A stretch of 64,000 bases of DNA from positions 1 to 64,000 of the forward strand of contig JAFDHO010000003.1 of NCBI GenBank assembly GCA_019308745.1, written 5' to 3'. The stretch is from Deltaproteobacteria bacterium. GTDB lineage: Bacteria; Desulfobacterota; DSM-4660; Desulfatiglandales; HGW-15. The translations under genes and the position numbers were made by a program. Below are positions 63,000-64,000 of this stretch, piece after piece. Below the pieces are notes generated by a model. That model was not told the origin of the DNA. It searched no databases and was given only the letters and a program-made list of their open reading frames with translations. The stretch's first letter is position 1, and the number at the start of each line of letters is the position of its first letter.

Positions 63000-63032
63000 A
63001 AAGACAGGGTCCTTTGGGTCAGGATATTTACT
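63000..63032 (+). repeat. 33-nt near-identical direct repeat, copy 2
   Basis: aaagacagggtcctttgggtcaggatatttact vs copy 1 at 61713. Confidence 0.7.
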
Positions 63033-63176
63033 TAGAAATGTCGGGGCCTGTGTGTTTCGGACAGCGGACAGGGCCGTGGCAGCTATTGTCCGGTATGTCG
63101 ACGGGAGGCTGAACATGGACAGGATCCGGCGCAGATACGGTTGAGCAATTAGAGCCAAAGGGGAGCAAGAATTCCC

Positions 63177-63210
63177 TTGACAGATAAAGAGAGAAGTGAG
63201 AATGTATTTA
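63177..63210 (+). promoter_or_regulatory. Candidate promoter for the leader/attenuator transcript
   Basis: ttgaca at 63177-63182; AT-rich -10-like aatgta/tatttaa 18-22 nt downstream. Confidence 0.4.
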
Positions 63211-63242
63211 AACAGAATTAGGATGACTTAGAGAGAACCTAG

Positions 63243-63329
63243 ATGCAAAGCATGATGATCAATCAATCCGGGCAAGCATATTATTACTATTACTACGTGA
63301 GAGGAGAAGTCTGCCCATGGTTTGATTGA
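63243..63329 (+). CDS. Candidate 28-aa leader peptide MQSMMINQSGQAYYYYYYVRGEVCPWFD
   Basis: ATG...TGA with six consecutive Tyr codons (63279-63296); gagag SD-like 7 nt upstream; followed by terminator. Confidence 0.65.
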   Translation: MQSMMINQSGQAYYYYYYVRGEVCPWFD

Positions 63330-63385
63330 TGTATTCATTTGTGGTTAGAGGCCGTGGGCAGCATCAAGCCCACGGCCTTTTTTTT
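63258..63385 (+). promoter_or_regulatory. Ribosome-mediated transcription attenuator (segments 1-4)
   Basis: Segment 1 63258-63274 pairs with segment 2 63312-63330; segment 2 CTGCCCATGG 63311-63320 pairs with segment 3 CCGTGGGCAG 63352-63361; segment 3 pairs with segment 4 in the terminator. Confidence 0.7.
63350..63385 (+). terminator. Intrinsic terminator of the attenuator
   Basis: GGCCGTGGGC (63350-63359) / GCCCACGGCC (63368-63377) perfect 10-bp stem, then eight T. Confidence 0.93.
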
Positions 63386-63486
63386 AGCCCGTTGGCCCTT
63401 GGCTATGGCACGGCAGTAAGGGAGAAGAGCAGACGGGCCTGCTCGGATTGAGGAAGGAGAAAAGGCACGGAAGGGTGGTAAGAAAG

Positions 63487-64000
63487 ATGATTATTACGGA
63501 AATCTTGGAGAGAAACGCAAGGTGTTACGGTCAAGAGACGGCCCTCGTGGAGAGGGACCCGCAAAGGAACAGGAGGAGGCATATCACCTGGGAAGAGTTT
63601 GAGGAAACGGCCAACAGAGTAGCGAGCGCACTGATTCAAAGGGGGGTTGAAAAGGAGGACAGGGTCATGCTGCTCATGAGGAATTGCCTTGAATGGCTTC
63701 CCCTCTATTTTGGCATACTCAAGACCGGGGCATGGGCCGTACCCCTGAACTTTCGCTTTACTCCGGAAGAAATAGCTTACTGCGCAGAGGTCTCCGAGGG
63801 GAAGACCTTGATCTTCGGTGAGGAGTTTACAGGCGCCATCAGCGAGATCAAAGGCAGACTGGGAAAGGTCAAGGATTACGTCTGCGTGGGTCTTGAGGAG
63901 GGCTCCCCCCTCTTTGGGGAACGCTTTGAGGACTTTTTGGACAGCGGAAGCAGTGAAAGGCCCGGGGGGCAAATCAGCCTCCTGGACGATGCAGCCCTCT
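63487..64000 (+). CDS. AMP-binding acyl-CoA synthetase/ligase, N-terminal part (continues past window end)
   Basis: Read directly: MIITEILERNARCYGQETALVERDPQRNRRRHITWEEFEETANRVASALIQRGVEKEDRVMLLMRNCLEWLPLYFGILKTGAWAVPLNFRFTPEEIAYC...; not in the supplied ORF track because it has no stop. Confidence 0.9.
   Translation, partial: MIITEILERNARCYGQETALVERDPQRNRRRHITWEEFEETANRVASALIQRGVEKEDRVMLLMRNCLEWLPLYFGILKTGAWAVPLNFRFTPEEIAYCAEVSEGKTLIFGEEFTGAISEIKGRLGKVKDYVCVGLEEGSPLFGERFEDFLDSGSSERPGGQISLLDDAAL

Follow-up and report, generated by a model that had tools for sequence, protein, structure and literature searches.

A Predicted Tyrosine-Codon Attenuator Upstream of an Acyl-CoA Ligase Gene in a Desulfatiglandales Genome

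The first-pass annotation of the DNA analyzed here proposed that a trp/phe-type transcription attenuator with a run of Tyr codons precedes a gene for an AMP-dependent acyl-CoA ligase, and the locus thus raises the question of whether this leader is an attenuator and what a Tyr signal might have to do with such a gene. The window, i.e., the whole stretch of 64,000 nucleotides that was analyzed, spans positions 1–64,000 of contig JAFDHO010000003.1 of assembly GCA_019308745.1 from a Deltaproteobacteria bacterium (GTDB lineage Bacteria; Desulfobacterota; DSM-4660; Desulfatiglandales; HGW-15). This assembly is a metagenome-assembled genome (MAG) that is 91.5% complete with 5.9% contamination and comprises 418 contigs.

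Anatomy and Folding of the Leader

Inspection of the sequence showed that the coordinates given in the first-pass annotation match base for base, and that the short ORF with six Tyr codons, the alternative complementarities and the 10-bp terminator with eight T residues are all present as described. The ORF (63243–63329, plus strand) comprises 28 codons and a UGA stop, encodes the peptide MQSMMINQSGQAYYYYYYVRGEVCPWFD, which has related peptides in the order, and is preceded 7 nt 5′ of its ATG by a purine-rich AGAGAG that could serve as a ribosome-binding site. A TTGACA at 63177–63182 (plus strand) is a possible -35 element of a leader promoter; a sigma-70 promoter scan around the leader was negative and showed no convincing -10. 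All further elements lie on the plus strand as well. Segment 1, ATCAATCAATCCGGGCA (63258–63274), ends shortly before the sensor, which consists of six consecutive Tyr codons (TAT TAT TAC TAT TAC TAC, 63279–63296); this short, presumably translated ORF has its codon run devoted to a single amino acid, and aromatic runs are conserved in homologous leaders. Segment 2, TGCCCATGGTTTGATTGAT (63312–63330, or from 63311 as annotated here), can pair with either segment 1 or segment 3 and contains the leader UGA (63327–63329). Segment 3, CCGTGGGCAG (63352–63361), overlaps the terminator 5′ arm, GGCCGTGGGC (63350–63359, together 63350–63361), and segment 4 is the terminator 3′ arm, GCCCACGGCC (63368–63377), followed by T8 (63378–63385; together 63368–63385). 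The terminator has 10 perfect, G+C-rich pairs with outer A-U/G-U pairs and an 8-nt loop, and the stretch 63350–63385 is the sole terminator-like site in 63000–63600. An Rfam search of the leader gave no family at the gathering cut-off and only sub-threshold, chance-level matches to unrelated families; a T-box or riboswitch reading was rejected, the leader being without a match to a known Rfam family.

The alternative-fold analysis that had been suggested as a check gave duplex energies of -21.9, -23.1, and -25.8 kcal/mol for 1:2, 2:3, and 3:4, respectively, and the minimum energy fold in the absence of translation was 1:2 plus 3:4 (-52.0 kcal/mol). Masking segment 1 still left 3:4 in the equilibrium minimum fold, and antitermination must therefore be kinetic, which is how classical attenuators work. 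With ample Tyr, the ribosome would go on to the UGA within segment 2, 3:4 would form, and transcription would terminate. When Tyr is scarce, the ribosome would be expected to stall at the first Tyr codons, the first of which starts 4 nt past the end of segment 1, and so to cover segment 1, whereupon 2:3 could pair before segment 4 is transcribed and the ligase gene would be transcribed. An untranslated leader would adopt 1:2 plus 3:4, and the ligase gene would stay off. We have little doubt that the leader is a genuine ribosome-mediated transcription attenuator, and the attenuation mechanism as such is very likely. Since the codons in the sensor run are all Tyr, the leader is read as Tyr-specific, and its Tyr-specific control of the ligase is probable.

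A Leader Family Across the Order and Its Targets

When 85 genomes of the order were searched by blastn with a 156-bp leader query, relatives turned up in 26 of them, with a best E-value outside the own genome of 8e-15. Nearly all of these relatives code for a short peptide that carries a Phe/Tyr(/Trp) run and ends like GLPMD. Among 27 aligned leaders, 84% of the cells were paired in 1:2, 92% in 2:3, and 99% in 3:4, with two-sided changes. A covariance model (R1) was built from 1:2 and 3:4 with 2:3 left out, and it gave 69 aligned matches in leader loci, 67 of which belong to the leader family while two are separate Trp leaders. On the R1 alignment, which was not fitted to 2:3, 90.3% of the 2:3 cells were paired, with 39 compensatory cells as compared to 11.5 in shuffled alignments, and pairing fell to 30–49% when 2:3 was slid by 1–3 columns. 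Since 2:3 is supported on an alignment independent of it, all three mutually exclusive helices are conserved. As far as inspected, R1 matches below about 50 bits mostly proved to be Trp leaders or terminators of other kinds and were excluded as evidence; the R1 E-value for the window leader is not independent since the window sequence is part of the model, and the blastn result is. Together, the related leaders in the order and the covariation in all three helices place the leader beyond chance. The proposed covariance search with tabulation of downstream genes returned a family across the order with covarying helices, in which aromatic runs and 1:2 are conserved together with the terminator. 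The comparison, including the mainly aromatic-biosynthesis targets of the family, supports the trp/phe-type logic.

Many of the first downstream genes were named by eye from sequence and not by profile search. Most family leaders precede aroK-aroC operons, which continue with a DAHP or ADTH synthase, dehydroquinate synthase, chorismate mutase, and other aromatic genes. One of these is a second leader in the own genome, MTMQNINQSGLFFGFYFWGRRLPMD (G000 C300:2433-2570, minus strand), which is 70% identical to the window leader over 122 bp and stands before genes that we take, from their protein sequences, to be those for shikimate kinase, chorismate synthase, and DAHP synthase. Other leaders precede a PLP aminotransferase (PRK06836, over its cut-off; L153, L175, L177, L180-L182), an ADP-forming acyl-CoA synthetase (L186, L187), or, at 12 loci (L016, L023, L032, L144, L145, L150, L154, L157, L159, L170, L171, L183), an MBL-fold protein of about 310–340 or 855 aa; at L023 the MBL-fold gene is followed by genes for a BadF-like protein and an HGD-D (2-hydroxyacyl-CoA dehydratase) protein. 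The MBL-fold proteins, which stand behind Phe/Tyr leaders in several families, are apparently an uncharacterized enzyme group under Phe/Tyr control. The idea that the 855-aa leader targets might be ligase fusions was rejected on test. In the homologous aro operons the regulated genes supply the sensed amino acids; for the ligase, only the linkage of its orthologues to iorAB, described below, provides such a tie.

Two further leaders were observed in the own genome. A divergent Phe/Tyr-rich leader with a terminator, MSQVTRIFFGFYFFFSGGSPVS (C316:3188-3321, minus strand; L191/L376), is the third of its kind there, and the gene after it encodes a stand-alone protein whose sequence matches the C-terminal portion of the 855-aa MBL-fold proteins that follow leaders in other genomes. 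A separate Trp leader (..HWWWLNSC) with a terminator stands before the anthranilate phosphoribosyltransferase gene on C300 (L005:2781-2885, plus strand), divergent from the aroK Phe/Tyr leader, and this divergent pair recurs in several relatives (L011, L014, L017, and L022).

We also surveyed 395 genomes of the phylum with a pattern of six consecutive Tyr codons in a short ORF plus a terminator, inspecting the 30 loci listed per pattern search and further selected loci; pattern matches in long ORFs or without a terminator were attributed to coding repeats or chance and not counted. Among the matches listed, six-Tyr leaders were found, besides that of the window ligase, before a DAHP synthase gene in G067 (whose near-identical counterpart in G068 has YDYYYYY), before the gene for an MBL-fold protein in G335, and, as two tandem poly-Tyr attenuators, before the gene for an ADP-forming acyl-CoA synthetase in G301. 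The same synthetase in the related G179 is preceded by an FYYFYY leader and then a YCYCYCYC leader (tandem loci L186, L187, L328). The window ligase (PF00501) and the ADP-forming synthetase (PF13607/PF13549) belong to unrelated families. The leaders of G301 and G179, both distant genomes of the phylum, mean that the window is not the only place where an acyl-CoA synthetase gene comes under Tyr-rich attenuation. Also among the matches listed is a six-Tyr leader with a terminator before a Liv-type ABC transporter operon in G215 (L326, L374). We tentatively suggest that Tyr-codon attenuation may have been recruited repeatedly in the phylum to unrelated acyl-CoA synthetases and other uncharacterized genes, although we would not yet favor this over its negation. 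If true, such recruitment would define a Tyr regulon under RNA-leader control and would indicate that the ligase-IOR module operates as a salvage route that starts from aryl acids and is repressed by Tyr. The leader family points to the MBL-fold proteins and the Liv-type transporter as candidates in aromatic amino acid supply.

The Ligase, Its Orthologues, and Tyrosine Salvage

The gene behind the terminator (63487–64000 in the window, plus strand) extends past the window to 65061 (L004:3488-5062) and encodes a 524-aa AMP-forming acyl-CoA ligase with AMP-binding (PF00501) and AMP-binding_C (PF13193) as its only Pfam domains. By sequence it is a class I adenylate-forming ligase, and this family assignment is certain; its best named profiles are generic fatty-acyl or aryl ligases, so the substrate is not fixed by the sequence. 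A PaaK-type phenylacetate-CoA ligase was considered and rejected, AMP-binding_C_2 (the PaaK C-terminal domain) being absent in the Pfam search. No same-strand gene was seen between the ligase end (65061) and the contig end (65574), leaving the ligase alone on the contig. Just past the window, 3′ of the ligase, L004:5280-5460 is non-coding with several inverted repeats and a structured look, and an Rfam search of it gave no family at the gathering cut-off.

Ligase orthologues across the order are 69–72% identical. Of the 28 order loci that offer 500 bp or more of sequence past the orthologue, 26 have iorA as the next gene, starting 19–394 bp after the ligase and followed, where seen, by iorB; delta proteobacterium NaphS2 and HGW-Deltaproteobacteria-15 provide named examples. 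Once identity drops below about 67%, the orthologues are mostly without an iorA neighbor. The own genome has orthologous iorAB at C97, unlinked to the ligase, and no leader was seen upstream of it. IOR (iorA-iorB, arylpyruvate:ferredoxin oxidoreductase) interconverts arylpyruvates and aryl-CoA thioesters, and the ligase and iorAB together make a module interconverting arylacetates and arylpyruvates. The first-pass annotation had called the ligase an unusual target and had guessed at either an aromatic amino acid/aryl-CoA link or a biosynthetic operon continuing past 64000. It is indeed not a classical biosynthesis gene, but the co-location of its orthologues with iorAB makes it a less odd target than thought; the aromatic link finds a basis in the same neighborhood, and the operon past the window fell away, as no further gene was seen on that strand of the contig.

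The explanation that we favor for the whole, and consider rather probable, is a Tyr-sensing attenuator on a ligase for arylacetate-to-Tyr salvage; the aryl-acid salvage physiology taken by itself is moderately likely. The ligase, as a single-gene unit, would form the CoA thioester of an arylacetate, most likely one such as 4-hydroxyphenylacetate; the iorAB product, from its separate locus in the genome, would reductively carboxylate the aryl-CoA to the arylpyruvate, and an aminotransferase would then make Tyr from it. The anabolic direction of flux (arylacetate to aryl-CoA to arylpyruvate to Tyr) appears favored since the ligase would be under starvation control, with the gene on when Tyr is short, and this suggests that the anaerobe rebuilds Tyr from recycled aromatic acids at such times. 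For Bacteroides, assays identified the IOR-linked AMP-forming ligase as an arylacetate-CoA ligase, with a biosynthetic role only suggested (PMC13285125), and Methanococcus maripaludis was shown to have a pathway from aryl acids to aromatic amino acids (Porat et al., cited in PMC4162585). A Tyr-starvation attenuator on such a ligase would be regulatory evidence for the anabolic direction of arylacetate ligase-IOR pairs.

The leader might instead sense Tyr while the ligase and IOR are catabolic or serve another acid, so that regulation tunes the breakdown of aromatic acids. IOR is reversible and takes part in peptide fermentation in other organisms (PMC5817080, PMC13285125), and the ligase has only generic fatty-acyl or aryl ligases as its best named profile matches. 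Nevertheless, attenuation turns the gene on at amino acid shortage, which fits supply and not breakdown, AMP-forming ligases favor acyl-CoA synthesis (PMC13285125), and homologous leaders stand before biosynthetic operons. We regard this explanation as quite improbable.

We then considered whether the ligase is the true target. No credible case of a family leader before a ligase orthologue was found in 29 order loci and 80 named loci, two sets that overlap and have short upstream sequence in some loci, and since no other examined ligase locus bears the leader, the pairing rests on one MAG. Many of the order orthologues have just upstream a conserved TTGACA promoter followed by the palindrome AGCTA-N5-TAGCT (for example, L069-L071, L079, L080, L089, L196-L198, and L200-L203), which is probably an operator for a repressor of the ligase-iorAB operon, and which is absent in the window. 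Comparison of purE-sua5 synteny revealed neither an ancestral target nor a leader-gene pair. It is conceivable, if unlikely, that a real and Tyr-specific attenuator has the ligase as a bystander through rearrangement or loss of its original target, e.g., an MBL-fold or aro gene: the pairing is confined to a single genome, in other genomes MBL-fold genes stand behind poly-Tyr or Tyr-rich leaders, and the own genome is without an orthologue of the leader-linked MBL protein (best match 27%). However, the ligase directly follows leader and terminator in the same orientation and nothing separates them, the operator that ligase orthologues usually have is missing here, the ligase is part of an aryl-acid module, and Tyr-rich leaders elsewhere precede an unrelated acyl-CoA synthetase. 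That the junction is an assembly or binning artifact, as the contig number and contamination of the MAG and the uniqueness of the pairing might invite one to think, is very improbable, since besides itself 63000–64000 matches the own genome only in one stretch of 122 bp (70%) and one of 33 bp (88%), and with no repeat at the junction for an assembler to join on, misassembly there is not invited. Salvage under Tyr control thus remains our preferred reading.

Comparison With Known Systems

Tyr-only attenuators of the classical type were not found in the literature searched, nor was Tyr attenuation of an arylacetate-CoA ligase. PMC1262725 cites surveys of the phe and trp attenuators of proteobacteria (pheA, pheST, trp) by Panina (2001) and Vitreschak (2004). 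Like these attenuators, the window leader has a leader peptide with regulatory codons whose stop codon falls within segment 2, an intrinsic terminator, and three helices that exclude one another. Unlike them, its regulatory codons are Tyr only and lie just 3′ of segment 1, its target is an acyl-CoA ligase gene and not a classical biosynthetic or tRNA-synthetase gene, and it belongs to an order-wide deltaproteobacterial family without an Rfam match at the gathering cut-off. The aroK-aroC leader on C300 of the own genome is homologous, with the same helices and a near-identical terminator, but has mixed Phe/Tyr/Trp codons before a classical aromatic operon, in contrast to the Tyr-only leader before the ligase. 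With the arylacetate ligase-IOR module of Bacteroides and M. maripaludis, the locus shares an AMP-forming ligase linked to iorAB in the relatives of the window genome, whereas in the window genome itself the two are unlinked and the arylacetate activity of the ligase is predicted. The tandem attenuators of G301 and G179 likewise combine Tyr-rich leader peptides and terminators ahead of a gene for an acyl-CoA synthetase, and differ in the unrelated enzyme family (PF13607/PF13549) and in the two attenuators in series. The mechanism is thus already known, and what is new is the combination of Tyr-only codons with an aryl-acid-activation target.
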